Below, one piece after another: positions 6,411-46,758 of a stretch of 64,000 nucleotides of DNA. How positions within the stretch are numbered: position 1 is the stretch's first letter; each line of letters starts with the position of its first letter. The notes beneath the pieces were generated by a model. It did not search any database and had not been told where the DNA came from. It saw nothing but the letters and a program-made list of their open reading frames with translations. The position numbers and the translations under genes are program-made. This DNA comes from Mycobacterium barrassiae (GTDB lineage: Bacteria > Actinomycetota > Actinomycetes > Mycobacteriales > Mycobacteriaceae): the NCBI RefSeq assembly GCF_025822765.1, contig NZ_JACKUK010000016.1:64458-128457 (forward strand), in the 5' to 3' direction.

Positions 6411-6429
6411 ACGAGAATTCAATTCTCGT
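6411..6429. promoter_or_regulatory. 19-bp palindrome, GAGAA-N5-TTCTC operator copy 1
   Basis: ACGAGAATTCAATTCTCGT has perfect 9-bp arms around one central C. It lies 18 bases before the GTG of the mhp-like operon. The core GAGAA-N5-TTCTC recurs at 38070, 38880 and 46743, each time in a promoter region, and with one mismatch at 37208. It is therefore a likely site of a shared regulator. Confidence 0.65.
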
Positions 6430-6447
6430 CGTCAAGAGAGGTGACGA

Positions 6448-7341
6448 GTGCCGGAATCGTCCCGACGACTGGCAGACGCGGATTTCGAGAGTGTCTGGAG
6501 CGACCTCCAAGGCGTCGCGTTCTCGCAGGGGTACCTCGACGCGGGCGGAGTGCGCACGCGTTATGTCCACGCCGGTGATCCGGACAAACCGGTGCTCGTC
6601 TTTCTGCACGGTTCGGGCGGGCACGCCGAGGCCTACGTCCGAAATCTGGAGGCGCATGCCGAGCATTTCTCGACATGGTCGATCGACATGCTCGGGCACG
6701 GATATACGGACAAGCCCGGACATCCGTTGGAGGTAGAGCACTATCTCTCCCATCTGATGGCATTCCTCGACGCGATCGGTGCACAGCGCGCCCACATCAG
6801 CGGTGAGTCGCTCGGCGGCTGGGTGGCCGCGCGCGCCGCCGTCGACCAGCCCGACCGGGTCGATCGACTGGTGCTCAACACCGCGGGCGGATCGCAGGCC
6901 GACCCCGAGGTGATGAAGCGCATCGTCACGCTGTCGATGGCGGCCGTGGAGAACCCGACGTGGGAAACGGTCCAGGCGCGCATCAAGTGGTTGATGGCCG
7001 ACAAGTCCAAGGATTACGACGACATCGTCGCCAGCCGCCAACGGATCTACCGCCAGCCGGAATTCGCCTCCGCGATGAAAGACATCATGGCGCTGCAGGA
7101 TCCGGAGATCCGCGCGCGAAACTTGCTCGGCCCGAAGGAATACGGGTCGATCACCGCGCCCACGATGGTGGTGTGGACCAGCGATGACCCGACGGCCGAC
7201 GTCGACGAGGGACGCCGAATCGCGTCGATGATCCCCGGTGCCCGGTTCGAGCTGATGCCCGGGTGCGGGCACTGGCCACAGTACGAGGACCCCAAGACGT
7301 TCAACCGGCTCCACCTCGACTTCCTGCTGGGACGCCTATGA
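6448..7341 (+). CDS. Alpha/beta hydrolase, MhpC/HsaD-like C-C bond hydrolase
   Basis: A 297-residue alpha/beta-hydrolase. The catalytic triad is visible: Ser121 in GESLGGW, Asp246 in SDDP and His275 in GCGHWPQ. The oxyanion region is [11 protein letters not shown]. Enzymes of this type hydrolyse the ring-opened product of extradiol catechol cleavage, which fits the mhpA- and mhpB-like genes directly downstream. The start is GTG with an AGAGAGG ribosome site. It is the first gene of a ten-gene operon and overlaps the hydroxylase gene by 4 bases. Assignment to meta-cleavage hydrolysis rests on context as much as on sequence. Confidence 0.8.
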
Positions 7342-9026
7342 GCACCGAGCGGGTGGACGTCGTCATCGTCGGTGCCGGACCTTCGGGGCTGACGCTGGCG
7401 AACATCCTTGGGCTGCAGGGCGTCCGGACGCTCATCGTCGAGGAGCGCGACACGCTCATCGACTACCCGCGTGGGGTCGGTCTCGACGACGAGGCGCTGC
7501 GCACCTTCCAGTCCATCGGTCTGGTCGACCGCGTCCTGCCGCACACCGTGCCGAACCAGATCCTGCGCTTCTTCGACGCCAAACGCCGGTTGCTCGCCGA
7601 AATGGCGCCGCCTGACGCGCGTTTCGGCTGGCCCAAACGCAACGGCTTCGTCCAGCCGATGGTCGACTCGGAACTGTGCGGCGGGTTGGAGCGATTCGAC
7701 CATGTCGAGGTTCGGTGGGGGCACCGGATGGAGAGCTGCGTTGAAACCGACGACGGCGTCACCGTCGGATTCGCCGATGGCAGGGATCCGGTGCACGCCC
7801 GCTACGTCGTCGGATGTGATGGCGGCCGTAGCGCCACCCGCCGCTTGATGGGGGTGTCGTTCGATGGAACGACGTCGTCGACCCGCTGGCTGGTGGTCGA
7901 CGTCGCGAACGATCCGCTCGGTCATCCGAACAGCGAGGTGGGAGCCGATCCCGCCCGCCCATACGTGTCGATCTCGATCGCGCACGGCATCCGCCGCTTC
8001 GAGTTCCTCATCCACGACGACGAGTCCGACGAACTCGCCGACGATCCGGCGTTCGTCAGACGCATGCTCGCACAACGTGTTCCGCATCCAGATCGGGTCG
8101 ACATGATCCGCCATCGCGTGTACACCCACCACTCGCGCATCGCGGGCTCGTTCCGCGAGGGCCGCCTCTTGCTGGCCGGCGACGCCGCACACCTGATGCC
8201 GGTATGGCAGGGCCAGGGCTACAACAGCGGCATCCGCGACGCCGCCAACCTCGGGTGGAAGCTCGCCGCGGTGGTCAACGGCCAAGCCGGCGACGCCCTG
8301 CTGGACACCTACGACGTCGAGCGTCGCAAACACGCGCGCGCGATGATCGACCTGTCCACGATGGTGGGACGGGTCATCTCGCCGACCAACCGACGGGTGG
8401 CAGCCCTGCGCGACCGGGTGATTCACGGCGCGTCGCTGGTGCCAACCTTGAAGCGTTATGTGCTGGAGATGCGGTTCAAGCCTATGCCGCGTTATCAGCA
8501 GGGGGCGGTGTGCCATGCCGACTACAGCGCGCCCAACTCGCCGACCGGCACGCTGTTCATCCAGCCCCGCGTCGACACCCGAACAGAACAGAACGTGCTG
8601 CTCGACGATGTCTTCGGTCCCGGCTTCGCCGTGCTGTGCTGGAGCAACAACCTGCGCGCCGTTCTCGGCGACGAAGCGTTCAACCGTTGGAAAGCGTTGG
8701 GGGCCAGATTCGTCGAGGCGCGGCCCATGACCCAGCTGCAGTGGCCCGGCCACGATGACCCCGATGTGGTCGTCGTCGGCGACCGGACGGGCGCGCTGAA
8801 GTCCTGGTTCGACGTCTACACCGACTCCGTGTTGTTCGTGCGGCCCGACCGCTGCATCGCAGGTGCCTGCATCGCGCAGCGCGCGCCCGAAATGAGCGAA
8901 TCGCTTTTCGGCGTCCTCTGTCTCACCCAGGAAGGAGGCTCGAGTTCAAATGGCGACACTGGCCCTGTGCTGCATGTCGCACAGTCCGCTACTGAACCTT
9001 CCGGGACCGTCACAGGATCTTCTTGA
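7338..9026 (+). CDS. mhpA: FAD-dependent aromatic hydroxylase, MhpA-like
   Basis: A 562-residue single-component flavin monooxygenase closely resembling E. coli MhpA (3-(3-hydroxyphenyl)propionate 2-hydroxylase) along its length. It has [17 protein letters not shown] at the N terminus, an [19 protein letters not shown] block, and [18 protein letters not shown] near residue 280 for FAD binding. It would add a second ortho hydroxyl to a phenol, giving a catechol for the next enzyme. The start ATG overlaps the hydrolase stop by 4 bases. The last 26 codons overlap the dioxygenase gene by 77 bases, so the C-terminal tail may be unconserved. The exact substrate is uncertain. Confidence 0.88.
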
Positions 9027-9894
9027 CGACATCGAGTTGGCCCTGGCGGCGGCGCGCGACTTCGTCACCGACTTCGATCCCGAACTGGTCGTGGTGTTCT
9101 CACCCGACCACTACAACGGGTTCTTCTACCGGACCATGCCGCCGTTCTGCATCGGCACCGCCGCGCAGGGGGTCGGCGACTACGGCACCTACGCGGGCCC
9201 GTTGGCCGTGCCCGAGGACATCGCCGCCGACTGCGCACGCGCAGTGCTCGAATCGGGTGTGGACGTGGCGCTTTCGGCCAGCATGGACGTCGACCACGGC
9301 ACGGTTCAGCCGCTGCAGAACCTGTTCGGCGACGCGACGTCCAAGCCGGTTATCCCGATCTTCATCAACTCCGTCGCCACCCCGCTCGGACCGTTGCGGC
9401 GTGTCCGTGCGCTCGGCGCCGCTGTGGGTACCTACCTGGCGACCCTGGGCAAGCGCGTCCTCGTCGTGGGATCCGGCGGTCTGTCGCACGATCCGCCGGT
9501 GCCGACGCTGGCCACCGCACCGCCTGCGGCGTTGGGGCGCATCGTGCACGGCGAACCGATGACACCGGAGCAGCGGCAGGCGAGGCAGGTGGCGGTGATG
9601 GATGCGGCGCAGGCCTTTGCGCACGGCGACAGTCCACTGCAACCGCTGAACCCCGACTGGGACCAGGCGTTCCTGGAGTTGGTCGATTCGAATCGACTCA
9701 GTGACGTGGACGGCTGGTCGAACAGCTGGATCGAGCAGCAGGCCGGTCACTCCGCACACGAAATCCGCACGTGGGTGGCGGCATTCGCGGCGCTGGCCGC
9801 CCACGGTCGCTACGAGACGGGACATCGGTTCTACCGCGCGGCGCCCGAGTTGATCGCCGGCTTCGCCGTCAGGACGGCGGTGTGCAACCCATGA
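8950..9894 (+). CDS. mhpB: Extradiol catechol dioxygenase, MhpB-like (class III)
   Basis: A 314-residue protein, the same length as E. coli MhpB (2,3-dihydroxyphenylpropionate 1,2-dioxygenase). Shared blocks include [17 protein letters not shown] and [13 protein letters not shown]. The catalytic histidines align as His116 (VDHG) and His180 (GLSHDPP), one position from His115 and His179 of the E. coli enzyme. It uses Fe(II) and oxygen to open the catechol ring beside the hydroxyls. GAAGGAGG lies upstream inside the hydroxylase gene, somewhat far from the ATG. Its product would go to an MhpC-like hydrolase. The stop overlaps the next start by 4 bases. Confidence 0.9.
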
Positions 9895-11663
9895 CCACCG
9901 AAACGTTCGACCACACCGTCGATGTGCTCGTCATCGGCTCCGGCGGTGGCGGGATGACCGCGGCGCTGGCTGCCGATGCGTTCGGTCTCGACACCCTGGT
10001 AGTCGAGAAGTCACCGCAGTTCGGCGGCTCCACCGCGCTGTCGGGCGGGGGCATCTGGGTGCCGGGCGCGCCGTCGCAGCGCGCTGCGGGCTACGCGCCC
10101 GATCCGGACGGCGTGTTCGAGTACCTGCGGCGCATCACTGGCGGGTTGGTCAGCGATGCGCGGCTACGCAAATACGTCGACAGCGCACCGGAGATGATGG
10201 AGTTTCTCGAGAAGCGCAGCCGGTGGTTCGAATTCGTCTGGAAGCCCGGCTATGCCGACTACTACCCGGAGCTGCCGGGCGGCTCGGAACTCGGCAGCAC
10301 GATCAATGTGCCCGCGATCGACCTGCGCAAGCTGGGCGATGAGGAGCAGAACCTGCTGCAGCCATTGGCCCTGGCGCCCAGGGGAATCTGGTTCGCCCCC
10401 AAGGACCTTCGGCTGTTCTATCAGGTGCGCCAGAACTGGCGGGGCAAGGCCGTTCTGGTGAAGCTGATCTGGCGGATGTTCCGGGCGCGGGTGTTCGGTG
10501 ACCGGATGGCCGCGATCGGCCAATCACTGGCGGCCAGGATGCGACTTGCGCTCAAGGAGCAGAACATCCCGCTGTGGCTCAGTTCGCCGATGACCGAACT
10601 CATCACCGACGTCGATGGGACAGTGACCGGCGCGGTGGTCGAGCGTGAGGGCCGTCAGCTGCGCATCGGTGCGCGGCACGGCGTCATTCTTGCGGCCGGC
10701 GGCTTCGATCACGACATGGAGTGGCGCAGGCAGCATCTGCCGGTGCTCGAGAAGGACTGGAGCTTCGGCAATCCCGCGTCGATGGGTGACGGGATCCGGG
10801 CAGGGGAGAAGGTCGGCGGTTCGACCGATCTGCTCGACGAGGCGTGGTGGTTTCCCGCCATGTGCTGGCCCGACGGCAGGCTGCAGTTCATGCTCAACGA
10901 ACGCATGATGCCGTCGCAGTTCGTGGTCAACGGCGAGGGCAAGCGGTTCATCAACGAAGCCGCGCCATACATGGACTTCGCACACGCGATGATCGAGGGC
11001 CAGAACTCCGGTGTCTCCCATATCCCGTGCTGGCTGATCACCGACATCCGCTCGTTCCACCGTTACATCGTCGGTGGGCATCTGCCGATTCCCAAGGTGC
11101 CCTTCGCGCCGGTGCCGACCGGATGGAAGGTGCCGAAGGCGTGGCTGGAGTCCGGAGTCGTGGTGGAGGGCAACAGCTTCGAAGAGCTGGCGACGAAGAT
11201 CGGCGTTCCGCCCGCGCAGCTTCGCGCGACCGCCGACCGCTTCAACGACCTTGCGCGCAGAGGCCACGACGATGACTTCAACCGCGGTGACTCCGCCTAC
11301 GACAACTACTACGGCGACCCGACCCTGCCCAACCCCAACCTGTACCCGCTGCAGAAACCGCCGTACTACGCGTTCCAGATCATCCTCGGCGACCTCGGCA
11401 CCTCGGGTGGGCTGCGCACCGACGAGCACGCCCGGGTGCTGCGCTCCGATGACAGTGTCGTCGAGGGGCTGTACGCCGTCGGCAACACCTCCGCCGCGGT
11501 GATGGGACGCAGCTACGCAGGCGCAGGCGCGACCATCGGGCCCGCGATGACCTTCGGGTACGTCGCGGCCAAGCACATCGCAGACCAGTTGCCCGACACA
11601 ACCGTTCAGTCGGGTACCCAGACCGATTCGACACTCGATTCCGATCGAAAGGTAACGAAATGA
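9891..11663 (+). CDS. FAD-binding dehydrogenase, KstD-like, second copy
   Basis: A 590-residue flavoprotein of the KstD superfamily. It has [21 protein letters not shown], then [22 protein letters not shown] near residue 125, [18 protein letters not shown], and a C-terminal [18 protein letters not shown]. The DYYPELPGG and PPYYA blocks correspond to regions carrying catalytic tyrosines in characterised KstD proteins, by recollection. It is longer than its paralogue at 3943-5553 through an insert near residues 140-200. Both neighbouring overlaps are 4 bases, so it is tightly coupled to the ring-cleavage genes. It may aromatise or desaturate an alicyclic ketone before hydroxylation, which is inference. 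Confidence 0.8.
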
Positions 11664-12997: not shown

Positions 12998-13032
12998 CGG
13001 AGGCGGACGCGAAGAGCAGCACTGAATGACCC

Positions 13033-13851: not shown

Positions 13852-13861
13852 GAGGCGAACT

Positions 13862-17163: not shown

Positions 17164-17879
17164 CGGCCGTCCACGCGGTCGACATGCTCGCAGACCAGCC
17201 GGGGGTATCGGCCGCGGTCGGGACGGAAGATGTCGTGGGGTGAGTCGTTGAACTCGACGAGATGTGCGTCCGGAAACAGCGCGCGGTAACGCGACCATTG
17301 CTCGTCGCCGACGAGGAAGCGTTCGCTACTGCGCACCGCGAGCAGTGGAAGTTGCTGTCGGGCAAGGGGTTCCCACAACGACCGCGGCTGCGCGGCGCCG
17401 AACGTCTTGTTCGCGGCGTCCTCGTCGAGCCGCTCACTCACCGGAGTGCCGCGCCAGCGGCCGCCGAGCAGCCGACGCGAGATCTCGGGCGTCAGCACCT
17501 TCTCCTCTGGCACGTAGTCGCCGATCGCGATCGACCTGACCCGCTCGACGTTGTCGATCACCCATGTCAGCGCATAGGCGGTACCTCTGGAGAACGTCGC
17601 CACGTGCACCGGGCCGTCGGTGACGGCGTCCACCACCGCCCCGATGTCGGTGCTCAACGTCGCGGCGTCGTAGCCGTTCGCCGGGGAGCTACTTCGGCCA
17701 TGTCCCCTGAGATCGACGACGACAGTCCTGCGGCCGAACAGCGACAGGATTTCGGCGTAGTCCTCGGCGACGCACGTCATGCCCGGCACGAACACCACCG
17801 GCGCGCCGCGATCATCACCGCCGGAGTCGAGGTAGTGGATGCGTGCATCGCCGTTATCGATGAACCGCGAATCAGCCAT
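17160..17879 (-). CDS. Alpha/beta hydrolase
   Basis: A 239-residue alpha/beta-hydrolase with a nucleophile elbow ATFSRGTAY and a late histidine in NDSPHDIF. RGHGRS near residue 65 is typical of the fold. I chose the ATG at 17879; a GTG at 17891 would add four residues, and neither has a clear ribosome site. It is divergent from a TetR gene and convergent with the mhp-like operon, whose last stop it overlaps by 4 bases. Being alone on this strand, it may be controlled by the TetR whose gene starts 106 bases away. The substrate is unknown. Confidence 0.75.
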   Translation of the reverse strand: MADSRFIDNGDARIHYLDSGGDDRGAPVVFVPGMTCVAEDYAEILSLFGRRTVVVDLRGHGRSSSPANGYDAATLSTDIGAVVDAVTDGPVHVATFSRGTAYALTWVIDNVERVRSIAIGDYVPEEKVLTPEISRRLLGGRWRGTPVSERLDEDAANKTFGAAQPRSLWEPLARQQLPLLAVRSSERFLVGDEQWSRYRALFPDAHLVEFNDSPHDIFRPDRGRYPRLVCEHVDRVDGR

Positions 17880-17984
17880 GGTCAGGGGCACTCTATGCGT
17901 CCGCCGACGGGTCCGGGACGCCTATCCGCCAAGAATTTAAATCAGTCGCTTGACTTAACTGCTGTGACGGGGTTCACTGGGCGG

Positions 17985-18641
17985 GTGACCACAGCCAGCA
18001 GGCCTGTTCGCACCGAACGGGCCTCCATCACCCGCGAAGCGATCCTGGCCGCGGCCGAGCGGCTGTTCGCCGAACACGGGGTCTACGCCGTTTCCAACCG
18101 CCAGGTCAGCGAGGCGGCCGGGCAGGGAAACAACGCCGCCGTCGGGTATCACTTCGGCACCAAGGCCGACCTCGTCCGGGCCATCGAACAGAAGCACCGG
18201 GTGTCGATCGAGCGGCTGTTGGCCCGGATGGTGGCCGACACCGGCGAGTCCACGGAACTGCGCGACTGGATCGCGTGCATGGTGTGCTCGCTCACCGAAC
18301 ATCTCGATCAGCTCGGCAACCCGACGTGGTACGCGCGCTTTGCCGCCCAGGCGCTCGCCGACCCCGCCTACCAGAAGATCGTCGTGAAGGACGCGCTCGC
18401 GTCGCCGTCGCTGGTGAGCGTCGTCGAACGCATCACGCGCTGCCTGCCCGACCTGCCGATGACCGTTGTCACCGAACGCAACATCATGGTGCGCAACCTG
18501 ATGATGCACACCTGTGCCGATTTCGAGCGCGCATTCGCCGAAGGGACGGCCACGCCCCGCACCACGTGGAGCTCGGTGGCCTCAGGTCTCATCGACGCCA
18601 TCGTCGGGCTGTGGCGGGCGCCCATCACGGAGCGACCGTGA
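17985..18641 (+). CDS. TetR-family regulator
   Basis: A 218-residue TetR protein. The N-terminal helix-turn-helix spans about residues 15-65 (ITREAILAAAERLFAEHG, NNAAVGYHFGTKADLV); the rest is a helical ligand domain. The start is GTG at 17985. The upstream region has a small inverted repeat, AGTC-N4-GACT, which could be its operator. It heads a nine-gene operon with a ferredoxin, P450 and CoA-pathway genes, and is divergent from the hydrolase at 17160-17879. Its stop overlaps the ferredoxin start by 4 bases, so it is probably autoregulated together with the P450 system. Confidence 0.85.
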   Translation: MTTASRPVRTERASITREAILAAAERLFAEHGVYAVSNRQVSEAAGQGNNAAVGYHFGTKADLVRAIEQKHRVSIERLLARMVADTGESTELRDWIACMVCSLTEHLDQLGNPTWYARFAAQALADPAYQKIVVKDALASPSLVSVVERITRCLPDLPMTVVTERNIMVRNLMMHTCADFERAFAEGTATPRTTWSSVASGLIDAIVGLWRAPITERP

Positions 18642-32400: not shown

Positions 32401-32401
32401 C

Positions 32402-33817
32402 TTAGGTTGCCGCGGGCGCGGGCGCCATCGCGGTGTCGACGGCGCGCAGCGGTGGCAGCCCGGCAGCCGACCGGATTTCTGTCAGACCGTGGATCATCGC
32501 GTCGGTGGCCTCATGGATGTCGTTGAACGTCTGATCGTCGGACAGGATCGAGATGTCCACCTGGTCGACGTAGCTCCACACCGTCATGTTGAACGCACTG
32601 CCCGCCGAGAGCACACCGATCGAGTAGATCTCGCTGACCGGCGCGCCGCCGATGTGGCCACGCTCGCGTGGACCGGGCACGCTGGACACCGCGACGTTCA
32701 TGAGCCTGTTGTGTGCGGCGCGCTTGGCCTGCCACCGCAGCACCGCCGGGGTCAGCGGCGGCGGCAGGTATTCCATCAGCTGACCCTGCAACTTCGGTCC
32801 GAGCAGTTCGTAGTTCTCCTTCGCCCGGGCGGTCGACAGCGAGGTCAACCGCACCCGCTCGAGCGGATCGTCGATGTGGACCGGCAACGACACCGAGAGT
32901 CCGCCGATCTCGTTGCCTGTCACGCGATCCGGTGACAGGTCGGTGCTGACGGGCACCGACGCCATCAGCGGTCGGTCGGCGCGCCCGTCGTACCGCAGGA
33001 GCAGTTCGCGGAGGCCGCCGGCGGCGGTGGCCAGCACGATGTCATTGAACGTGACGTCCAGCCGCTTGGCCGTCTCCTTGACGTCGGCCAGCGACAGCGA
33101 CGCGGTGGCGAAGGTCCGCCCGGGGGAGATGACGTGGTTGAGGAACGTCGGTGGGGTCTGGAACATCTTCGCCAGATCGGGATGGTCGCTGCGCTCTTTG
33201 GCGCGTCGCCGCAGCCGGGCGGCTCCTTTGGCTGCATCGCGCGCCAGTCGGGGTAGCGCAGCGACGTGTGCGACGTGGTCGCGCATCGCTTCCTTGACCA
33301 ACTCGTTCGACGACGGCGGCTCGCACGTCGCGTACTCGTCGCATTCGTCTTGCGCCGACCCCGTGAGGTCCATCAACCGGGCGAGCAGATTGGCCGACGC
33401 CACCCCGTCGGCCAGGGTGTGGTGCACCTTGCCGATGAGCGCGAAACGGTCGTCGGCCATGCCCTCGGCGAAGTGGAACTCCCACAGGGGCCGTGTGCGG
33501 TCCAGCGGTGTGCTCGCAATCCGGCCGATCACCTCGTCGAGTTCACGCCTGCCGCCCGGCGCCGGCACTTGCACGCGGCGCAGGTGATAGTCGAGGTCGA
33601 CCGGGCAGTCCTCCAACCACATCGGGTGGTGCAGTTTCAGTGGGATGTCGATGAGCCGGTACCGCAGCGGGTCGAGCAGGTGCAGGCGGCGGGCGATGGT
33701 CCTGCGGAACACGTCGAAGGTGAACTCACCCTCGTAGTCAGCCGCGTGGACGATCGCCACCTTCAGCGTGTGGGTATGGAGATTCGGCGTCTCGCTGTAC
33801 AACAGCATCGCGTCCAT
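32402..33817 (-). CDS. Wax ester synthase/diacylglycerol acyltransferase (WS/DGAT)
   Basis: A 471-residue (or slightly longer) WS/DGAT. The catalytic HHTLADG motif (HHxxxDG) lies near residue 131, and PLWEFHF precedes it. Family members usually begin MKRLNGMDAMLLYSET. Here the matching codon before KRLNGMDAM is CTG (33833-33835) behind a G-rich stretch, so the true start may be CTG at 33835, giving 477 residues; 33817 is the first ATG. It makes storage lipid by joining acyl-CoA to an alcohol or diacylglycerol. It converges with the FadD gene with only 1 base between the stops. Confidence 0.88.
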   Translation of the reverse strand: MDAMLLYSETPNLHTHTLKVAIVHAADYEGEFTFDVFRRTIARRLHLLDPLRYRLIDIPLKLHHPMWLEDCPVDLDYHLRRVQVPAPGGRRELDEVIGRIASTPLDRTRPLWEFHFAEGMADDRFALIGKVHHTLADGVASANLLARLMDLTGSAQDECDEYATCEPPSSNELVKEAMRDHVAHVAALPRLARDAAKGAARLRRRAKERSDHPDLAKMFQTPPTFLNHVISPGRTFATASLSLADVKETAKRLDVTFNDIVLATAAGGLRELLLRYDGRADRPLMASVPVSTDLSPDRVTGNEIGGLSVSLPVHIDDPLERVRLTSLSTARAKENYELLGPKLQGQLMEYLPPPLTPAVLRWQAKRAAHNRLMNVAVSSVPGPRERGHIGGAPVSEIYSIGVLSAGSAFNMTVWSYVDQVDISILSDDQTFNDIHEATDAMIHGLTEIRSAAGLPPLRAVDTAMAPAPAAT

Positions 33818-33905
33818 ACCATTGAGTCGCTTCAGATCCCACCCCCGTTCGGACGGGTCTATGCAACCACCGTCCGGCCATGATCGGGGGCTTTCTGCGA
33901 ATGAC

Positions 33906-34991
33906 CTATGTGCTGATCGCGTCCAGCGCCGCGCGCGTCTCCAGATCGATGAACGCCGCCGAATACCGCTGCGCCAGCGTGACCGAGATGGCCGCGGTCT
34001 GCCAGGCATCACCGCCCGACGACGTCGCCATCCAGATCGCCAGCCCGTGGGCTACCGACGCGCGGTAGCGCAGCCACACCTCGTCGGCGCTCGGCATCTC
34101 GTCGGCGGGCAGCGCGAGCGCGTTGCGGTACTCCTCGAGCAGGTCGCGCTCGGCCGTGCGGCGGTCCTCGATGGTCAGCGCGCCCTGCAGAAAGTAACCG
34201 AGGTCCAGCGACCAGTTGCCCCGGCGGGCCATCTGCCAGTCGAGGAACCCGACTTTGTCGCCGGGGGAGTCGTCGGGCAGCACGTAGGTGTTGCCGATGT
34301 GGGGATCGCCGTGCAGCAACGTCTGCACAGAGGTGGTGAGGGTGCCGATGTAGCGCGCCCAGATGTCGATGAAGAGCTCGGTTCCGTTGAGCGCGAGAAT
34401 CTCCGGCGCCACGGTGTCGCCCAGCCGTTCATGGGCGATGTGTAACGGCGCATATTGCATGCCCTCGAATGCGACGAACGGTTCGAGCCAGCCCAGCGCG
34501 GGCTCGGCGGCCACCCGTTCGCCCCAGAACCGACTGTGCATCCTGGCCAGGCCGCGAACCCCGTTGGCCACCTGGTCGACGGTCATCGGCCGGGTCGAGT
34601 CGCGTGGATCGGCACCGCGCGCGACGACGTCCTCCATGATCATCACGAAGTCCGAGCGGTCCTCGTCGATGAGCGCGGTGTACACGGTCGGATGGTCGAG
34701 CGGCAACTCGACCCCGCAGGTGAACAGCCGCGGCTCGTGATAGAGCCCGCTGGTCAATGCGACGAGCTCGGCATGGTCGGGGTCGACCGCCTTGGCGAAC
34801 ACCGTCGCCGGTCCAGAGCCCTCCGCGTACATCAGCGCCAGGCGTGCACGCCGGTTGGTGCCGTCGTCGCGCAGTGCGACGCGCACATCGTCCACGACGG
34901 CACCCGGATGATGACGCGACAGCGCCACCGTCATCCAGTCCGGGGTGATGTCATCCCAGCCGCGCGGCAGCGACAGCTCCGCGACAGTCAC
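33906..34991 (-). CDS. APH-type phosphotransferase family protein
   Basis: A 361-residue protein with the aminoglycoside-phosphotransferase/choline-kinase fold. It has LLHGDPHIGN (catalytic loop) near residue 225 and KVGFLDWQMAR (metal-binding Asp) near 245. Such proteins phosphorylate small hydroxylated molecules. Beside catabolic genes the comparison is with 4-hydroxyacyl-CoA kinases rather than antibiotic resistance. The start is GTG at 34991, 11 bases after a mycofactocin-type SDR gene with which it is probably co-transcribed. A second APH protein is encoded at 60153-61178. Confidence 0.8.
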   Translation of the reverse strand: MTVAELSLPRGWDDITPDWMTVALSRHHPGAVVDDVRVALRDDGTNRRARLALMYAEGSGPATVFAKAVDPDHAELVALTSGLYHEPRLFTCGVELPLDHPTVYTALIDEDRSDFVMIMEDVVARGADPRDSTRPMTVDQVANGVRGLARMHSRFWGERVAAEPALGWLEPFVAFEGMQYAPLHIAHERLGDTVAPEILALNGTELFIDIWARYIGTLTTSVQTLLHGDPHIGNTYVLPDDSPGDKVGFLDWQMARRGNWSLDLGYFLQGALTIEDRRTAERDLLEEYRNALALPADEMPSADEVWLRYRASVAHGLAIWMATSSGGDAWQTAAISVTLAQRYSAAFIDLETRAALDAIST

Positions 34992-37207: not shown

Positions 37208-37222
37208 CAGAACGTGCTTCTC
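37208..37222. promoter_or_regulatory. GAGAA-N5-TTCTC-like operator, one mismatch
   Basis: CAGAACGTGCTTCTC matches the shared operator core at 9 of 10 arm positions with the same 5-base spacing. It lies upstream of the P450 at 35880-37079 and overlaps the thioesterase stop by 2 bases. It is weaker evidence than the perfect copies. Confidence 0.4.
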
Positions 37223-38039
37223 AATCTCGTTGCGCGAAGCGGACGAGAGCCTCCTGGCCATACGAGGCGACCAGTGAGCCGTCGCGGGTGAGCACGTCGC
37301 CCCGACCGAAGCTGCGGCCGTGTGCCAGCAGGGGACTGTGCTGGCGCAACAGCAGCCAGTCGTCGGTGCGGAACGGCCGATGGAACCACACGGTGTGCGA
37401 GGTGACCGCGGAGGCGAACGTCGTGCCGTTACCGCGCTGGTCGGCTCCCTCGATCGGACGCAGGGCGGTACCGATCAAGGTCAGGTCGGTGGCATAGGCG
37501 GCCAGCGCCGGCGCCAGTGCGGGGTCCACGTCCGGGGTGCGCATCCAGACCTCGAATTCCGGCGGGCCGACGGTCGGCGCGTTGAGGTCGACGGCCGCTC
37601 GCGTCTCCCACGGGATCAGGTCGAGTGGGATCTCGTGCTCCGGGCCGAGCACCGGTCCGACGTCTGCGATCTCCTGGTGTTCGGGTCCGTCTTCGAGGAC
37701 ATGCATGCTGATCGAGGCGGTGGCGATGACGCCCCGACTCTGCGATGCGGTGATCGTGACCGTGCCGAACGACCGCCCCTCATGGGCGCGAACGGCCTGA
37801 TAGCGAACCGGCTCGTCGGCCGTGCCTTCCCGGGTGAACACCGTGTGCTGCGATTTGACCGCCTTATCCGGGCAGGTCAGCCTCGCGATCTGGAGGAACT
37901 GGCCCAGGAGTTGGCCGCCGAACACCCGGTAGTACTCCAGTTGCTGATTGCGGCCCTCGAACTCTGCCGTTTCGCCGTTTTGCGTCGACGGTCGGGTGAT
38001 GTCCAGGCAGCCGAGTAGATCGGTCCAGAGATCGGGCAC
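37221..38039 (-). CDS. TesB-like acyl-CoA thioesterase II, altered active site
   Basis: A 272-residue double-hotdog protein, close to E. coli TesB in length. The C-terminal VWFHRPFRTDDWLLL and RDGSLVAS-x-GQEA match TesB. By eye, the TesB catalytic Asp (in LDH) is Ser here (TSHTVWFH) and the Thr position reads Pro, while the Gln is kept. It may be a weak or specialised thioesterase, releasing CoA from an acyl-CoA. The start is GTG at 38039 with a weak ribosome site. A perfect 17-bp operator copy lies 30 bases upstream. It precedes the P450 operon on the same strand. Confidence 0.78.
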   Translation of the reverse strand: MPDLWTDLLGCLDITRPSTQNGETAEFEGRNQQLEYYRVFGGQLLGQFLQIARLTCPDKAVKSQHTVFTREGTADEPVRYQAVRAHEGRSFGTVTITASQSRGVIATASISMHVLEDGPEHQEIADVGPVLGPEHEIPLDLIPWETRAAVDLNAPTVGPPEFEVWMRTPDVDPALAPALAAYATDLTLIGTALRPIEGADQRGNGTTFASAVTSHTVWFHRPFRTDDWLLLRQHSPLLAHGRSFGRGDVLTRDGSLVASYGQEALVRFAQRD

Positions 38040-38068: not shown

Positions 38069-38085
38069 CGAGAACGTAGTTCTCG
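38069..38085. promoter_or_regulatory. GAGAA-N5-TTCTC operator copy before the thioesterase gene
   Basis: CGAGAACGTAGTTCTCG contains the perfect core GAGAA-N5-TTCTC. It lies between the TetR stop (38098) and the thioesterase start (38039) and would control the thioesterase and perhaps the P450 genes beyond. Confidence 0.6.
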
Positions 38086-38097: not shown

Positions 38098-38823
38098 CTA
38101 GCTGGCGGCGAATCCGTGAGCGCAGAAGTCCCAGAGTTCTTCCGCGGTGATGGGGTGCGACGCAGCGTCGGTGGAGTCCTCGCCGGTGGATTGCGCCGCG
38201 TTGAACATCACCGTCTGCATCGTCATGGCCGCCATCCGCTTCGGATTGATGCCTTCCCGCAGCTGACCTGCGGCGCTGGCCTCCTCCATGAGCTCGGTCA
38301 GCAGTGCCAAAAGCGGTGCGTGGGCGATCTTCACCTCGGACGGATGAGAGACCAGAAGTCGTGGAGCGAAGTCGGTGAACAGGGGCCGCTTGGCGGTGGG
38401 ATCCGGGCGCGACGACTCGAACAGCAGCTGAATGGCGACTTTCAGGCGCTCGATCGGCTCATCCGGGCCGCTGGTGGCCGCCCGGATCTGGTCCGCGGAG
38501 CGGGCAAGGGCGTCTTCGAACAGCGCCAGCAGCAACTCGTGCTTACCGTCGAACTGCAGGTAGAAGCTTCGCAGCGACTGACGCGAGCGGTCGACGACCT
38601 CTTGGACGGTGAAGTCGGTGCTGCCCTTTTCGATGATGATCGCCTGGGCGGCATCGAGGAATCTCTGAACGCGTTGCGCGGCCCGGAGCTTGGCGGTTTT
38701 GATCGATCGCTCGACCGCGCGCTGCTTCCAGGCGGGTTCTTCGCTGGGAATGGTCACGGGCGGCTCGGATGCTGCCCGATTTGGGAGAACATGGACTGAC
38801 TGTACCGGAGAACGCCTTGCCAT
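38098..38823 (-). CDS. TetR-family regulator, candidate owner of the GAGAA-N5-TTCTC operator
   Basis: A 241-residue TetR protein with a charged N-terminal extension of about 45 residues before the helix-turn-helix (DFTVQEVVDRSRQSLRSFYLQF, about residues 68-90). The remainder is the ligand-binding helical domain. I chose the ATG at 38823; upstream in-frame codons run through the promoter. It is divergent from an acyl-CoA dehydrogenase gene, and one perfect operator copy lies between them (38879-38895), with another just past its stop. It is therefore the best candidate for binding the copies at 6411 and 46742 too. The ligand may be an acyl-CoA, by analogy with KstR/FadR-type TetR proteins. Confidence 0.82.
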   Translation of the reverse strand: MARRSPVQSVHVLPNRAASEPPVTIPSEEPAWKQRAVERSIKTAKLRAAQRVQRFLDAAQAIIIEKGSTDFTVQEVVDRSRQSLRSFYLQFDGKHELLLALFEDALARSADQIRAATSGPDEPIERLKVAIQLLFESSRPDPTAKRPLFTDFAPRLLVSHPSEVKIAHAPLLALLTELMEEASAAGQLREGINPKRMAAMTMQTVMFNAAQSTGEDSTDAASHPITAEELWDFCAHGFAAS

Positions 38824-38878: not shown

Positions 38879-38895
38879 GGAGAATAGTATTCTCC
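38879..38895. promoter_or_regulatory. GAGAA-N5-TTCTC operator in a divergent promoter
   Basis: GGAGAATAGTATTCTCC has perfect 8-bp arms around one G. It lies between the TetR gene (-) and the acyl-CoA dehydrogenase gene (+), the normal place for a TetR autoregulatory site. Confidence 0.7.
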
Positions 38896-38956
38896 TTTTA
38901 CTGGTAACAGTAGTCTTACCAAAAATTTGATCCGTGCTCGTTTGAGGGAGCGTCGT

Positions 38957-40132
38957 TTGCAGCTGACGTTCGACGCTGACGTCGAGGCCTTCCGTGCGGA
39001 GTTCATCGCCTTCCTGGACGAGCATCTGCCCGCGGACCTCGAGGCGCTGGACCGTTCGCGCTCCAGCAGCGATGTTCCGGACTGGGCCAGGCGCTGGCAG
39101 CGGCTGATGTTCGACAACGGCTGGCTGATGCCGGGCTATCCGCCCGAGTTCGGCGGCCGCAATGCCACCATCCTCCAGCAGTACGTCCACCAGGAGGAGT
39201 TGGCACGTCGCAGGTGCTATCTCACATTCAACCCGCAGGGCGTCGGCATTATCTCCGCGTCGCTCATCTCGTTCGGCACCCCCGAGCAGCAGCGGCGCTG
39301 GGCCGTCCCGATATTGCGCGCCGAGATGACGGCGTCGCTGGGGATGAGTGAGCCGGGTGCGGGATCCGATCTCGCCTCCCTGCGCACCCGCGCCGAACTC
39401 GACGGCGACGAGTTCGTGGTCAACGGGCAGAAGGTGTGGACCTCCGGCGCCCATGACGCCGACGTGCTTCTGACATTCGTTCGCACTGATCCGAATGCCC
39501 CCAAACACAAGGGCATCAGCGTGCTGCTGATTCCGACCGACCTGCCCGGTGTGGTGCGGCGTCCGTTCGCCTCGGTGTGCGATGTGGGCGACCTCGATTT
39601 CAACGAGGTGTTCTTCAACGACGTCCGGGTCCCGGCCGAGAACCTCGTCGGGCCGCTGAACGGTGGCTGGCAGGTGGCCAACGGCTCGCTGGGCCACGAG
39701 CGGAACATGTTGTGGCTCAGCTACGCCGACCGGTTGGAAGAACTCATCGAGGACTTTCGCCCCGCCACGGCGCTCGACCGTGACCGCTACGCCAGGCTGG
39801 CCATGGACAATCAGGCGCTCCGCCTGCTCGGCTCGGTGGCACTGGCACGCGCCGCGCGCGGCGACGAGGACGCCGCGGCGCTTTCCGTCCTCAAGCTCTT
39901 CGGCTCCGAAGCGTCGCAGTCGGCAGCCGAGTACGCGCTCGCCGCGGCGGGCGCCGACGGCCTGGACTGGCCCGGTTTCTCCGGTACCTACAGCGCGCAA
40001 CACCTCGACCTCTACCGGAGCGCCTGGTTCGAGCGATACGTGCGGACGTTCGGCGGCACCATCGCCGGCGGTACCTCCGAGATTCAACGCAACATCATCG
40101 CCCAGCGACTGCTGGGCCTACCCCGCAATTAG
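38957..40132 (+). CDS. Acyl-CoA dehydrogenase
   Basis: A 391-residue FAD-dependent acyl-CoA dehydrogenase. It has LGMSEPGAGSDLASLRT (flavin and substrate loop), FVVNGQKVWTSGAH, and a C-terminal RTFGGTIAGGTSEIQRNIIAQRLLG. The start is unusual: TTG at 38957 has GAGGGAG six bases upstream and is preferred over an in-frame TTG at 38927. It would introduce the alpha,beta double bond into an acyl-CoA. It is followed after 8 bases by an enoyl-CoA hydratase gene, the next beta-oxidation step. It is divergent from the TetR gene and under a perfect operator copy. Confidence 0.88.
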   Translation: MQLTFDADVEAFRAEFIAFLDEHLPADLEALDRSRSSSDVPDWARRWQRLMFDNGWLMPGYPPEFGGRNATILQQYVHQEELARRRCYLTFNPQGVGIISASLISFGTPEQQRRWAVPILRAEMTASLGMSEPGAGSDLASLRTRAELDGDEFVVNGQKVWTSGAHDADVLLTFVRTDPNAPKHKGISVLLIPTDLPGVVRRPFASVCDVGDLDFNEVFFNDVRVPAENLVGPLNGGWQVANGSLGHERNMLWLSYADRLEELIEDFRPATALDRDRYARLAMDNQALRLLGSVALARAARGDEDAAALSVLKLFGSEASQSAAEYALAAAGADGLDWPGFSGTYSAQHLDLYRSAWFERYVRTFGGTIAGGTSEIQRNIIAQRLLGLPRN

Positions 40133-40140
40133 GAACAACC

Positions 40141-40923
40141 GTGTACATCGAATACGAAGTCGCCGACAAGATCGCCACCATCACCTTGAACCGGCCTGAG
40201 GCCGCCAACGCGCAGAACATCGAGTTCCTCGACGAACTGGACGCCGCGTGGACCCGGGCGGCCGAGGACAATGACGTCGCGGTGATCATCCTGCGCGCCA
40301 ACGGAAAACACTTCTCGGCCGGACACGACCTGCGCGGCGGCGGACCCGTCCCGGACAAGATTACGCTCGAGTTCATCATCCAGCACGAGCACCGCCGCTA
40401 TCTCGAGTACACGCTGAAATGGCGCAACGTGCCCAAGCCGTCGATCGCGGCCGTGCAGGGCCGCTGCATCTCCGGCGGCCTGCTGCTGTGCTGGCCGTGC
40501 GACCTGATCATCGCCGCCGACGATGCGCTGTTCTCCGATCCGGTGGTGCTGATGGGCATCGGGGGAGTCGAATACCACGGCCACACCTGGGAACTGGGCC
40601 CGCGCAAGGCCAAGGAGATCCTCTTCACGGGTCGGGCGATGACGGCCGACGAGGTCGCGAGCACCGGAATGGTCAACCGGGTGGTGCCGCGCGACCAACT
40701 CGATTCCGAGACCAGGGCGCTGGCCGAGCAGATCGCCAAGATGCCGAGTTTCGCGCTGCGCCAAGCCAAGCGGGCCGTCAACCAGACCCTCGACGTGCAG
40801 GGCTTCTACGCGGCCATCCAATCGGTGTTCGACATCCACCAGACCGGCCACGGCAACGCGCTGAGCGTGAGCGGCTGGCCGGTGCTGGTGAACCTCGATG
40901 ACATGAAGGCGAACATCCAGTAG
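40141..40923 (+). CDS. Enoyl-CoA hydratase
   Basis: A 260-residue crotonase-fold protein of normal length. It has HFSAGHDLRGG (first oxyanion loop), VQGRCISGGLLLCWPCDLIIAADDALFSDPV (second loop), and a C-terminal RQAKRAVNQTLD helix. The start is GTG at 40141. It is coupled to the acyl-CoA dehydrogenase gene upstream and likely hydrates its product. Its end converges on the minus-strand operon at 40938, with only 14 bases between the stops. The exact catalytic acid pair of canonical hydratases is not clear, so isomerase or lyase action is possible. Confidence 0.85.
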   Translation: MYIEYEVADKIATITLNRPEAANAQNIEFLDELDAAWTRAAEDNDVAVIILRANGKHFSAGHDLRGGGPVPDKITLEFIIQHEHRRYLEYTLKWRNVPKPSIAAVQGRCISGGLLLCWPCDLIIAADDALFSDPVVLMGIGGVEYHGHTWELGPRKAKEILFTGRAMTADEVASTGMVNRVVPRDQLDSETRALAEQIAKMPSFALRQAKRAVNQTLDVQGFYAAIQSVFDIHQTGHGNALSVSGWPVLVNLDDMKANIQ

Positions 40924-40937
40924 CAGCTGCAGGGCAG

Positions 40938-41729: not shown

Positions 41730-41731
41730 GA

Positions 41732-42865: not shown

Positions 42866-43296
42866 CCGGCCTCCGGCCGACCGATCGCGTGCGGTCGACC
42901 CGAGTCGTGCTCGCCGCTGCGGCGAATGAACGTCATGGCCCTGGTTTTCAGCCGCCAGCCGTCGTCGGTGCGGACGTAGGTGTCGTTGTAGTAGCCGATG
43001 CGCATGTCGTGTTTGGAGTGCTCGATGAAACACAACGGCTGTGTGCCGGTGGCCTTGTCGGGATCGCCGGCGTCAAGGGTCACCAGCGACGTGCCCGTCA
43101 TGAACAGGCCCTTGGGGGCGGCCTCGACGAGTTCGGGGAAGCGCGCCAACGTATACGTGGAACCGAACGCGCTGTACGTGCCGTCCGGCGTGAACACCGA
43201 GATCAGGCCGTCGATGTCGCCCTGCGTGATGGTGACCGCGTACTTGGCGAGCAGCTGCTGGATCTCGACGAGGTCGTCAGTTCTAGATGGCGTCAT
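42862..43296 (-). CDS. SnoaL/NTF2-like protein
   Basis: A 144-residue protein with the cone-shaped NTF2-like fold pattern: an N-terminal helix (DDLVEIQQLLAKYAVTITQGDIDGLISVFTPDGTY) and a C-terminal strand GWRLKTRAMTFIRR. This superfamily includes steroid isomerases, polyketide cyclases, limonene epoxide hydrolase and small subunits of ring-hydroxylating dioxygenases. In this operon either an isomerase role or a small (beta) subunit for the Rieske enzyme is possible; the sequence does not decide. It overlaps the amidohydrolase gene by 14 bases. Confidence 0.78.
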   Translation of the reverse strand: MTPSRTDDLVEIQQLLAKYAVTITQGDIDGLISVFTPDGTYSAFGSTYTLARFPELVEAAPKGLFMTGTSLVTLDAGDPDKATGTQPLCFIEHSKHDMRIGYYNDTYVRTDDGWRLKTRAMTFIRRSGEHDSGRPHAIGRPEAG

Positions 43297-44506: not shown

Positions 44507-44508
44507 TG

Positions 44509-44838
44509 TTAGACCACCGGCTCCTTGATACAGGTGACGTAGGTGGCGCCGCTGTCGAGAACCCGCGGTTGCTTCCACACCTCGATGGGGAACGACACAT
44601 TCACCAGCGACTGCATCATGTGGATGAGAGCCTTTGCGTCGTCGGGCATTCCGTCCAGCGGGAACCTGGAATCGCAGTATTCCATCACAGCCTCGAGGCG
44701 TGGGAATGCGGTGTCGTAGAACTCCTGCATCTCTTCCATCGTGGAGGCCAGCCGCTTCTGGTAGCGATCCTCCTCGTTGGGCAGGCACCAATCGGAGAAC
44801 CGTTCGAGGTCGGCGAACTCGGGTGGCAACTTAGGCAT
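44509..44838 (-). CDS. Small conserved-looking protein, function unknown
   Basis: A 109-residue soluble, acidic protein. I recognise no family. It has an N-terminal segment LPPEFADLERFSDWCLP, a helical middle rich in Met and Glu (TMEEMQEFYDTAF), and a C-terminal strand-like SGATYVTCIKEPVV. It overlaps the Rieske oxygenase gene by 8 bases, so it is made together with it. Size and place suggest an accessory, chaperone or small subunit of the oxygenase, but that is inference only. No membrane segment or signal peptide is present. Confidence 0.7.
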   Translation of the reverse strand: MPKLPPEFADLERFSDWCLPNEEDRYQKRLASTMEEMQEFYDTAFPRLEAVMEYCDSRFPLDGMPDDAKALIHMMQSLVNVSFPIEVWKQPRVLDSGATYVTCIKEPVV

Positions 44839-46174
44839 TGATGGCGTCCTTCTTGCTGGGGTTCGACGTGGCGTGACCGTTGGTATCGCCGTTGGTCAGG
44901 CCCTTTTCCTTCTTGTACGCGTTGACGTAGTCCCATGCCGTCTTGTGCAGGTGACGCAGCAGAATCTCCTGATCGCACAACGGGAAGTCGGTGACGACCC
45001 GGGTACCGATCTGCGTCTGGGTGGCCTCCAGCGTGTTGGCGTCCTGGAACGCATACTCCTTGAACGTCACGGCCGCGAGCTCGTGGGCGAGCCGCTCACG
45101 GGTGTTGGTGGCCGGCACGAAGTACAGCGTGCACTCGAAGATGTGCTTGTCCACATCGGTGGGCCAGTAGTGGTAGGTGAGGTACCAACCCGGAGCCCAC
45201 AGCAGCAGGGTGAAGTTCGGGAAGAACTCGAACGAGTCCTGACCCCACGAGTGGTGGCGCGACGGGTTGACCGCCGGCGGCAACTCGTCGGGCAGGATGC
45301 CCTTGATCTTGGGCCGGTCCCATGGCCCGAACAGACCGCTGTGCAGCACGCGCTCGATCGGCTTGACCATGTTCTCGTCCTTCGGCGGGCTCATGCCCCC
45401 CCAGGACGAGATCATCGAGTGCTGACCCTTGATGTCGTAGTGCAGAGCCTCGAAACCGTAGCTCGCCAGCTTCTCGGCTTCCTCCTTGACCGCCTGCTTC
45501 ATGTGCAGGATCGGCGCGTGGTAGAACTCGACGAACGCGTCGATGAACAGCTTCCAGTTCGCATTGACTTCAGCTCGGTAGCTGTAGGTTTCGGTCATCT
45601 CGTGGAAGGGATAACCCTCCAGACCCTTCCCGAACTCGCCGAGGTACTCGGTCAATGGCTCGGCGTCGTTGTCGAAGTTGATGAAGATGAACCCTTCCCA
45701 CACCTCGCAGCGCACGGGCACCAGCCCGTAGTCGCCCTTGTCGAGGTCGAAGAACTCGTCCTCCTGCTGGACGAAGGTCAGGTCACCCTCGAGGCTGTAG
45801 CGCCAGGCGTGGTACTTGCAGGTGAACTGGCGGCACGTGCCCGAGACCTCCTCGCCCGGATAGTCGTTCCACACCAACTTGTTTCCACGGTGGCGGCACA
45901 GGTTGTAGAAGGCGCGAACCTTCTCCTGCTTGTCCTTGACGATGATGACCGACGTGCCCTTACCTGCGGACGGCATCTCCTTGGTGAAGTAGCTGCCCTT
46001 CTTGGGCAGCCGCTCCACGCGGCCGACGTTCAGCCAGCACTTGCGGAAGATGGCCTGCTGTTCGAGCTTCCACTGCTCGGGGTCGATCGAATCGGTGTAA
46101 TCGACCGGCGCAGTTCCTAGTTCGGGCCAGTTCTCAGTCCAACTGCCTGCCGCCGGCTTGGGGAAAAATGCCAC
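44831..46174 (-). CDS. Rieske non-heme iron ring-hydroxylating oxygenase, alpha subunit
   Basis: A 447-residue protein. The Rieske cluster ligands are in NLCRHRGNKL and FTCKYHAWRY (C-x-H and C-x2-H, about residues 90-116). The mononuclear iron site appears as DAFVEFYHAPILHMKQ. Such enzymes hydroxylate aromatic or alicyclic compounds with oxygen and electrons from a reductase. No reductase or ferredoxin gene is in this operon. A small unknown gene overlaps its end by 8 bases, and a CMD-like gene lies 7 bases before its start. It is probably the first oxidative step of the operon. Confidence 0.9.
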   Translation of the reverse strand: MAFFPKPAAGSWTENWPELGTAPVDYTDSIDPEQWKLEQQAIFRKCWLNVGRVERLPKKGSYFTKEMPSAGKGTSVIIVKDKQEKVRAFYNLCRHRGNKLVWNDYPGEEVSGTCRQFTCKYHAWRYSLEGDLTFVQQEDEFFDLDKGDYGLVPVRCEVWEGFIFINFDNDAEPLTEYLGEFGKGLEGYPFHEMTETYSYRAEVNANWKLFIDAFVEFYHAPILHMKQAVKEEAEKLASYGFEALHYDIKGQHSMISSWGGMSPPKDENMVKPIERVLHSGLFGPWDRPKIKGILPDELPPAVNPSRHHSWGQDSFEFFPNFTLLLWAPGWYLTYHYWPTDVDKHIFECTLYFVPATNTRERLAHELAAVTFKEYAFQDANTLEATQTQIGTRVVTDFPLCDQEILLRHLHKTAWDYVNAYKKEKGLTNGDTNGHATSNPSKKDAINA

Positions 46175-46181
46175 GGTTTGT

Positions 46182-46721
46182 CTACCTCTCTACGTGTTCT
46201 TCTGAGTCGGGTTCGACACCGAACGTGTTGATAGCCATGGCGAGTGCGCCATAGCAGCCGATAGTGAAGACGAGATCCATCCGTTGGCGCTCGTCGAGGT
46301 GCTCCGAGAGCGCCGCCCATGTCGCATCGGAGATCACCGAGTCGTCCTCGAGTTCATCGACGGCCGCGATGACCGCGCGATCGAGATCGTCGGTGGCCTC
46401 GCCGCGCTGGATGCCTTCGATGACCTCAGGGGTCAGGCCGGTCTCGCCACCCATGCGGACGTGGTGGCGCCATTCGTACTCGCAGTGGCGCCGGTGGGCG
46501 ACTCGCAGCACCGCCAGCTCGCGCAGCCGGTCCGACAGCGTCGACCCGTAGAGCAGGTGAAAGTTGAAACGCAGGAAGGCGCGGGTCAGCTTGGGGTGGC
46601 GGACGAGTGTGGCGACGAGGTTGCCCGCGGCTTCGGGGTTACGTCGCTCGACCGGCATGTTCTCCAGCGCCCGATCGACAGCGTCGTCCCACTGGTCAGC
46701 GGGGAGCGGTGAGACACGCAC
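46182..46721 (-). CDS. Carboxymuconolactone decarboxylase/AhpD-like protein
   Basis: A 179-residue all-helical protein of the CMD/AhpD family. The active region reads RHCEYEWRHHVRMGGETGL, with the Cys, Glu and paired His typical of the group. Members act as decarboxylases or as small peroxide-linked oxidoreductases. The GTG at 46721 is preferred because AGAGGAAG precedes it by six bases; longer starts would run through the operator at 46742-46758. It is the first gene of the Rieske operon, and its place suggests action on an oxygenase product. Confidence 0.82.
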   Translation of the reverse strand: MRVSPLPADQWDDAVDRALENMPVERRNPEAAGNLVATLVRHPKLTRAFLRFNFHLLYGSTLSDRLRELAVLRVAHRRHCEYEWRHHVRMGGETGLTPEVIEGIQRGEATDDLDRAVIAAVDELEDDSVISDATWAALSEHLDERQRMDLVFTIGCYGALAMAINTFGVEPDSEEHVER

Positions 46722-46741
46722 CGACGACTTCCTCTCGTTCA

Positions 46742-46758
46742 CGAGAATTAGATTCTCA
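46742..46758. promoter_or_regulatory. GAGAA-N5-TTCTC operator before the Rieske operon
   Basis: CGAGAATTAGATTCTCA contains the perfect core GAGAA-N5-TTCTC. It lies just upstream of the start chosen for the CMD-like gene, so a bound repressor would block the whole seven-gene operon. Confidence 0.65.

Follow-up and report, generated by a model that had tools for sequence, protein, structure and literature searches.

The 64,000-nucleotide stretch of DNA analysed here (the window) comes from Mycobacterium barrassiae and corresponds to positions 64,458 to 128,457 of contig NZ_JACKUK010000016.1 (C16:64458-128457), in a genome of 5.9 Mb that is 99.98% complete. It contains several groups of catabolic genes whose promoter regions share a short palindromic word, GAGAA-N5-TTCTC, as well as the gene of a TetR-family regulator of 241 aa, P0001 (38098..38823, minus strand; PF00440), which is the probable binder of that word. 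Exact copies are located at four places. The copy at 6413..6427 (C16:70870) lies between the gene of an IclR-family regulator (5583..6335, minus strand; PF01614, PF09339) and an mhp-like operon on the plus strand. The copy at 38070..38084 (C16:102527) lies between the 3' end of tetR and the start of a gene for a TesB-type acyl-coenzyme A (acyl-CoA) thioesterase (37221..38039, minus strand; TIGR00189 with 129.5 bits, below the cut-off of 292.85), and that at 38880..38894 (C16:103337) is in the divergent promoter of tetR and an acyl-CoA dehydrogenase gene (38927..40132, plus strand; Pfam acyl-CoA dehydrogenase domains), which is followed by an enoyl-CoA hydratase gene (40141-40923; NF006140 with 392.8 bits, cut-off 280). 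The fourth, at 46743..46757 (C16:111200), separates an operon on the minus strand from a gene for an Amidohydro_2-family protein on the plus strand (46943..48277; PF04909). This minus-strand operon encodes a carboxymuconolactone-decarboxylase-family (CMD) protein (46182..46799; PF02627) and the alpha subunit of a Rieske ring-hydroxylating oxygenase (44831..46174; PF00848, PF00355); the longest open reading frame (ORF) of the CMD gene covers the operator, and its true start is therefore probably later. Finally, a degenerate copy at 37208..37222, overlapping the thioesterase stop codon, precedes a cytochrome P450 gene (35880..37079, minus strand; PF00067).

The mhp-like operon starts with an alpha/beta hydrolase gene of the HsaD/MhpC-like type (6448..7341, plus strand), for which the best NCBIfam model is HsaD with 136 bits, below its cut-off of 400. 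Three plus-strand genes with uncertain starts follow, which encode an MhpA-like flavin hydroxylase (7263..9026; NF004828 with 1122.8 bits, cut-off 853), an MhpB-like extradiol dioxygenase (8950..9894; NF009910 with 538.8 bits, cut-off 291) and a KstD-like flavin adenine dinucleotide (FAD) dehydrogenase (9771..11663; NF009473, 'FAD-binding protein', with 1106 bits, cut-off 837). The KstD models score lower on the last product than NF009473 does, and under their own cut-offs. Family searches thus confirmed the identities given to these genes in an earlier reading of the DNA made from its letters and ORFs (the sequence-only reading): mhp-like, thioesterase, TetR, acyl-CoA dehydrogenase, P450 and Rieske.

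The four exact copies are where that reading had placed them, and the word was found 0 times in 100 dinucleotide shuffles of the window. The degenerate copy is present too; it reads CAGAACGTGCTTCTC and has one mismatch to GAGAA-N5-TTCTC. One-mismatch copies number 5 in the window; shuffles average 1.08, and 2 in 100 of them reach 5. The operator had been proposed to span 17 bp, a length that we dropped: the common word has 15 bp, with GAGAAY-N3-RTTCTC as its tighter form, to which the degenerate copy has two mismatches. The flanks vary over a set of 47 sites gathered from five genomes with the 15-bp pattern, no flanking base exceeding 47%, while the inner Y is T in 85% of these sites. The palindromic flanks that had also been proposed exist at 6411-6429, where 18 of the 19 letters equal their own reverse complement and the exception is the odd central base, but in the 47 sites they are not conserved in general.

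Genome-wide, the exact word GAGAA-N5-TTCTC occurs 11 times and its reversed control twice. Nine of the 11 copies are inside C16:55999-199419 (143 kb), and all nine read GAGAAY-N3-RTTCTC, a form that has 9 copies in the whole genome, against 0 for its reversed control. The remaining two, on C11 and C34, have G..A as inner bases; the C11 copy is about 520 bp upstream of the nearest called start, and the C34 copy overlaps the first codons of a predicted gene. None of the nine C16 sites lies deep in a gene, by our own gene calls, which exempt 150 bp at the 5' end of every gene, though only 17.8% of the 50-205 kb region is not deep by this definition (product 1.8e-7). For each, either a called start follows within 75 bp or the site falls among the first 124 bp of a possibly over-long ORF, so that exact copies are not strewn through coding sequence, the pattern which the sequence-only reading had held to speak against an operator. 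A scan of the genome with one mismatch allowed, as that reading had proposed, gave a divided outcome: the exact word is confined largely to one region and placed at promoters, whereas the one-mismatch word is scattered, with 129 copies against 37 of the reversed control. Because the one-mismatch word is so unspecific, single degenerate copies need conservation as support; the one-mismatch scan was rejected as a regulon list, and conservation was used in its stead.

Beyond the window, exact sites are found at C16:55999, with genes for a 2Fe-2S ferredoxin (minus strand) and a CoA ligase (plus strand), then two acyl-CoA dehydrogenases; at 61745, with genes for a short-chain dehydrogenase/reductase (minus strand) and a MeaB-type GTPase (plus strand); at 148101, with a P450 gene; at 163622, accompanied by a one-mismatch copy at 163498, with an acyl-CoA dehydrogenase pair and two amidohydrolases; and at 199405, with an amidohydrolase gene followed by that of a FadD3-family ligase (NF005801 with 762.5 bits, cut-off 657). 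Weaker sites at 176907 (one mismatch) and 177072 (GAGAAY-N3-RTTTCC form) are upstream of an mce operon with genes for an aldehyde dehydrogenase (ALDH), a CoA transferase, two MlaE/YrbE permeases and six MlaD/Mce4_CUP1 proteins. Another weaker site, at 202188 (one mismatch), is just upstream of two genes that may encode Mce-associated membrane proteins; at the cut-offs used, neither received a Pfam family. A GGAAAY-N3-RTTCTC word at 195377 is in the over-long 5' end of a gene for a ChsH2-like zinc-ribbon/OB-fold protein (C16:194942-195535), which is followed by a thiolase/lipid-transfer-type gene (193784-194929); a pair of this ChsH2-like and thiolase-type kind recalls the aldol cleavage of steroid side chains. 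One-mismatch matches at 14846, inside a gene, and at 190528, before a small protein, are not claimed as sites. The island as a whole has at least five P450s, five Amidohydro_2 proteins and three CoA-transferase family III genes. It also contains further TetR-type genes (window 17262-18641, C16:63130-63735 and C16:63818-64561; PF00440) and, without an exact operator of its own, a gene for a wax ester synthase/DGAT-type acyltransferase (PF03007; window 32402-34012).

Conservation of the individual sites was followed in named loci, which are the 80 closest of 395 for the TetR protein and are all mycobacterial (Mycobacterium, Mycolicibacterium and mycobacterial metagenome-assembled genomes). An exact site is present upstream of tetR in 80/80 of them, centred at -63 to -72 and mostly at -64, and within 400 bp past the tetR stop codon in 54/80. 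The conservation of the word beside orthologous tetR genes, on which the sequence-only reading had made its operator depend, is thus borne out. When the 80 tetR promoters are aligned, both arms of the word are 100% identical and its centre is variable, against a mean of 69% for the aligned stretch. An exact site belonging to the Rieske operon is found 5.0-9.6 kb upstream of tetR in 67 of the 72 named loci that have at least 7.5 kb there. The copy before the P450 gene, with its two mismatches to the tighter word, had been taken as a chance match until it was followed through 48 orthologous promoters, which overturned this view: in 41 of them GAGAA-N5-TTCTC is found at -200 to -80, exactly or with one mismatch (reversed control 2/48, shuffle mean 0.16). 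Thirty of the 89 orthologous mhp promoters, including that of the window, were read; 24 have the exact word, one has a one-mismatch copy, four have GAGAAY-N3-RTTTCC and one has none, and the reversed control at two mismatches matched 1/30. The mce operon, for which 30 promoters of 78 close orthologues were read, has the one-mismatch word together with a second word of the TTTCC form in 30/30. The asymmetric form GAGAAY-N3-RTTTCC hence recurs, both beside the mce-operon site (L195:1471) and in place of the exact word in four mhp promoters (L263, L267, L271 and L273), and is perhaps a weaker class of operator. In four further genomes (G034, G020, G089 and G100), most of the fetched sites precede genes orthologous to those of G000, and beside the acyl-CoA dehydrogenase pair all four keep two tandem sites at a distance of 123-124 bp. 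These tandem sites lie between the divergent amidohydrolase gene and that pair, and the first of them has A as its outer base (AAGAAY) in the same four genomes and in G000.

The number of exact sites also follows the regulator across the genus. An orthologue of P0001 is present in 95 of 118 genomes (best E value 7e-85 or better) and absent from 22 (1e-27 or worse), and one, G070, has a fragment. The TetR-positive genomes have a mean of 8.9 exact sites and the TetR-negative ones 0.41, with a maximum of 2; at least five sites are found in 91/95 of the former and in 0/22 of the latter. Over all 118 genomes the total is 854 sites, against 15 for the reversed word. The nine sites in TetR-negative genomes are spread over seven of them, each inside a predicted ORF, and the one in G097 is also 15 bp before another ORF. 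The single site of G070 is 64 bp upstream of its tetR fragment. Four TetR-positive genomes have few sites, namely G026 (1), G056 (2), G063 (1) and G088 (0). Four more genomes, found by way of the named loci, agree with the general picture: M. senegalense has 10 sites, M. houstonense 9, Mycobacterium sp. DL99 11 and M. hippocampi 9, with 0 for the control in each. The IclR orthologue is present in 89 of 116 genus genomes, all 89 of them TetR-positive; the mhp hydrolase has an identical distribution (89/116, all TetR-positive), and 78/78 genomes with a close orthologue of the mce-operon ALDH are TetR-positive as well. MceA was tried as an island marker and rejected, since 98/116 genomes match it through paralogous operons, TetR-negative ones included.

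P0001 has the helix-turn-helix of the TetR_N family at residues 56-101 (PF00440 with 31 bits, cut-off 24), and this motif scarcely varies among 27 orthologues and paralogues with 74-100% identity. An AlphaFold model built from 28 sequences is all-helical with ten helices (mean pLDDT 75.4, pTM 0.66). Foldseek matched it to TetR proteins among the solved structures, with a best E value of 3.3e-06 and a TM-score by query of about 0.6. FadR repressors from Bacillus and Thermus rank first among them, several solved with acyl-CoA (3whc, 3anp), and the next ones include EthR2, Rv0078 and KstR2, and also RolR with resorcinol; identity is low throughout, at 14-24% among the 50 matches listed. On the basis of these fold matches, a CoA thioester is a reasonable guess for the inducer. 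An annotated relative of the regulator was sought in a plasmid collection, without a match.

Taken together, the TetR protein encoded at 38098..38823 is very probably the binder of GAGAAY-N3-RTTCTC, and would be an autoregulated repressor that unites about a dozen promoters in one regulon. It is the best candidate because the site in its own promoter is the most constant, because the sites follow it across genomes, and because a perfect site persists at -64 of tetR in G056, a genome in which IclR, the mhp hydrolase and MceA have no match. Both proposals of the sequence-only reading, this protein as the probable binder and a single regulon, are therefore supported; the former gains from the co-occurrence in the genus and from G056 and is weakened by G026 and G063, and the latter is well supported and extends beyond the window, where the regulon probably includes an Mce operon. 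Most likely, TetR would bind the 15-bp palindrome as a dimer and repress its own gene and about a dozen promoters over some 146 kb. As long as no substrate is present, the dimer would keep these promoters silent by lying over the promoter or the early leader. The proximity of the sites to gene starts agrees with a block to RNA polymerase or to the early transcript. A conserved TACAAT of the tetR promoter starts 13 bp beyond the operator, so that the operator, on our own reading, may cover the -35 region. Once the substrate had entered and been activated, an acyl-CoA intermediate, probably a CoA thioester, would release TetR, and the importer, ligases, oxygenases, meta-cleavage enzymes and beta-oxidation enzymes would then rise together.

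The predicted enzymes fit the breakdown of a compound that is hydrophobic and has a ring, alicyclic or aromatic. In such a pathway the P450 and Rieske enzymes would oxidize the ring, which the KstD-like protein could aromatize; the MhpA-like enzyme would hydroxylate it and the MhpB-like enzyme would open it by meta-cleavage. The ligases, the paired acyl-CoA dehydrogenases, the enoyl-CoA hydratase and the thioesterase would provide CoA activation and beta-oxidation of the side chains and the opened ring, and the Mce-type importer would be joined to the set through its weaker sites. Judging from the enzyme families, we infer one pathway for one ring-containing hydrophobic substrate; steroid-like, terpenoid and aromatic-acid substrates were weighed, and the families decide for none of them.

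Other proteins than TetR might read the word. The IclR-family protein encoded at 5583..6335, whose gene diverges from the mhp-like operon across an exact site, is found exclusively in TetR-positive genomes; if it were the binder, TetR would merely be a member of the regulon. The four TetR-positive genomes that are IclR-negative have 0-2 sites, as would be expected in that case, and co-occurrence by itself does not tell the two regulators apart. We nevertheless consider this improbable, since G056 keeps its tetR site without an IclR match, G045 still has 10 sites while its IclR frame holds two stops, and G034 has no exact site at IclR among the ten whose place was listed (11 were counted), as opposed to a tetR site in all 80 named loci. 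Apart from the question of the binder, IclR may add local control of the mhp-like operon. An origin of the sites in the sterol regulon, with KstR as their binder, is suggested by the operator of KstR, TAGAAC-N2-GTTCTA (PMC1995591), which shares the AGAAC half-site, and by the FadD3-family ligase, KstD-like, ChsH2-like and Mce genes of the island. Here, however, the spacer is 3 and not 2, the outer base is G and not T, and P0001 matches KstR (5ua2) with an E value of 0.008 only. KstR orthologues were moreover reported in all mycobacteria of one study but M. leprae (PMC4482099), whereas the 22 genomes without P0001 have 0-2 sites; we therefore regard KstR as a highly improbable binder. That the word is a chance or shared promoter element and no operator at all could be argued from its location in promoter regions and from the abundance of one-mismatch copies, but it is hardly credible given that the site count tracks one regulator across genomes, and that the centre of the word varies and both arms do not.

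The regulated genes could also share one operator and yet serve several co-induced pathways. The numbers of P450, Amidohydro_2 and CoA-transferase family III genes exceed one short route, and a korA-like gene (POR domains) of central metabolism carries a site in some genomes: in G020 and G089, an exact site is about 245 bp upstream of it. On the other hand, tetR, IclR and the mhp hydrolase have nearly one distribution, and all genomes with a close orthologue of the mce-operon ALDH are TetR-positive; such shared distributions favour a common purpose, and we consider the alternative of several pathways rather less likely than not. As to korA itself, an exact site follows the same upstream gene as at the korA-like locus in G034 and G063 (the sites of these two genomes and of G020 and G089 are at L178:4001, L194:4001, L172:4001 and L238:1501), and korA was rejected as a core member of the regulon, the korA-like gene of the window genome having no upstream word at up to two mismatches. 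Besides the korA sites and the IclR-negative genomes poor in sites, a number of observations weigh against our preferred reading of one TetR regulon that includes an Mce operon. In G026 and G063, tetR is present (76-80% identity), yet the neighbourhood fetched around it has no site at zero or one mismatch; beside tetR in G088, all that is left is a remnant with two mismatches. IclR is nearly as conserved as TetR, and the stretch with TACAAT adjoining the operator in the tetR promoter is nearly as conserved as the operator (97%). One-mismatch copies are common genome-wide. The sites that link the mce operon to the regulon are weak, and TetR-negative genomes have MceA-like proteins too (G044 at 68% identity). 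In addition, the counts are not independent, given the relatedness of the genomes and the choice of the 80 closest loci out of 395. In G088 (L228, G088:C43), whose genome has 3.2 Mb, the island genes beside an intact tetR frame are fragmentary and the operator is decayed, as if the system were being lost.

Six genomes (G016, G022, G069, G073, G085 and G100) have two TetR copies at 74-79% identity. Each of the three examined (G016, G022 and G100) has the usual site at about -63 of one copy and GAGAAG-N3-CTTCTC at about -67 of the other; the copies with the variant operator are at L234:7603, L181:4771 and G016:C1:715934. In G022 and G100 the variant copy adjoins thiolase and ChsH2-like genes, and in G022 very few residues of its helix-turn-helix are changed. 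The changed palindrome at the second copy is possibly a natural shift of operator specificity.

These results provide a candidate regulator, a candidate operator and a gene list for a large catabolic island, the regulator being common to 95/118 genomes of the genus, and they would connect an Mce importer with a definite group of degradation enzymes. Should the model be right, loss of one repressor ought to switch on the whole set and make the substrate searchable. The duplicated regulator, its operator being altered, would exemplify a change of specificity that arose in nature. More broadly, most of the sampled mycobacterial species may possess a further Mce-linked programme of ring degradation that runs parallel to KstR/Mce4, with an undescribed acyl-CoA-sensing TetR protein, its own operator and importer and an unnamed substrate, and whose repressor was duplicated in some lineages, the copy having moved to GAGAAG-N3-CTTCTC; we hold this wider view to be about as probable as its opposite. 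No description of the word or the regulon was found among the papers listed from open-licence PubMed Central, and degenerate spellings of the word gave no match there, which is weak evidence of absence. Balhana et al. (2015) predicted palindromes in the divergent tetR promoters of conserved mycobacterial TetR genes, and Table 2 of that paper gives 30 regulators with M. tuberculosis gene numbers (PMC4482099).

The arrangement resembles several known systems. FadR-type TetR repressors of Bacillus and Thermus, the best fold matches of P0001, repress fatty-acid genes; they differ from it in having 15-22% identity to it among the matches listed, and other target genes. KstR2 of M. tuberculosis likewise shares the TetR fold (4w1u, Foldseek rank 44) at 20% identity. 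It regulates later steps of ring degradation, FadD3 included, and its operator, AnCAAGnnCTTGnT, differs in sequence from the word described here. A close parallel is the KstR regulon, which is paired with Mce4 in cholesterol catabolism. The Mce operon of the island, with its two MlaE permeases and six MlaD/Mce4_CUP1 proteins, has only the one-mismatch word and the TTTCC variant upstream, in all of the promoters read. KstR is an autoregulated TetR protein with a large catabolic regulon (PMC1995591), and its link with Mce4 is mentioned in PMC4881515. The system described here is predicted to have the same design: an autoregulated TetR protein, a short palindrome with AGAAC half-sites and a large catabolic regulon. 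It differs in that the word has 15 bp, a 3-bp spacer and a G/C outer pair, a form kept in the tetR promoter of every named locus; in that KstR (5ua2) ranks only 24 of the 25 PDB sequence matches listed for P0001; and in that the meta-cleavage enzymes are of the MhpA/MhpB type. Most likely, then, the predicted regulon works like that of KstR/Mce4 and is distinct from it by operator and regulator.

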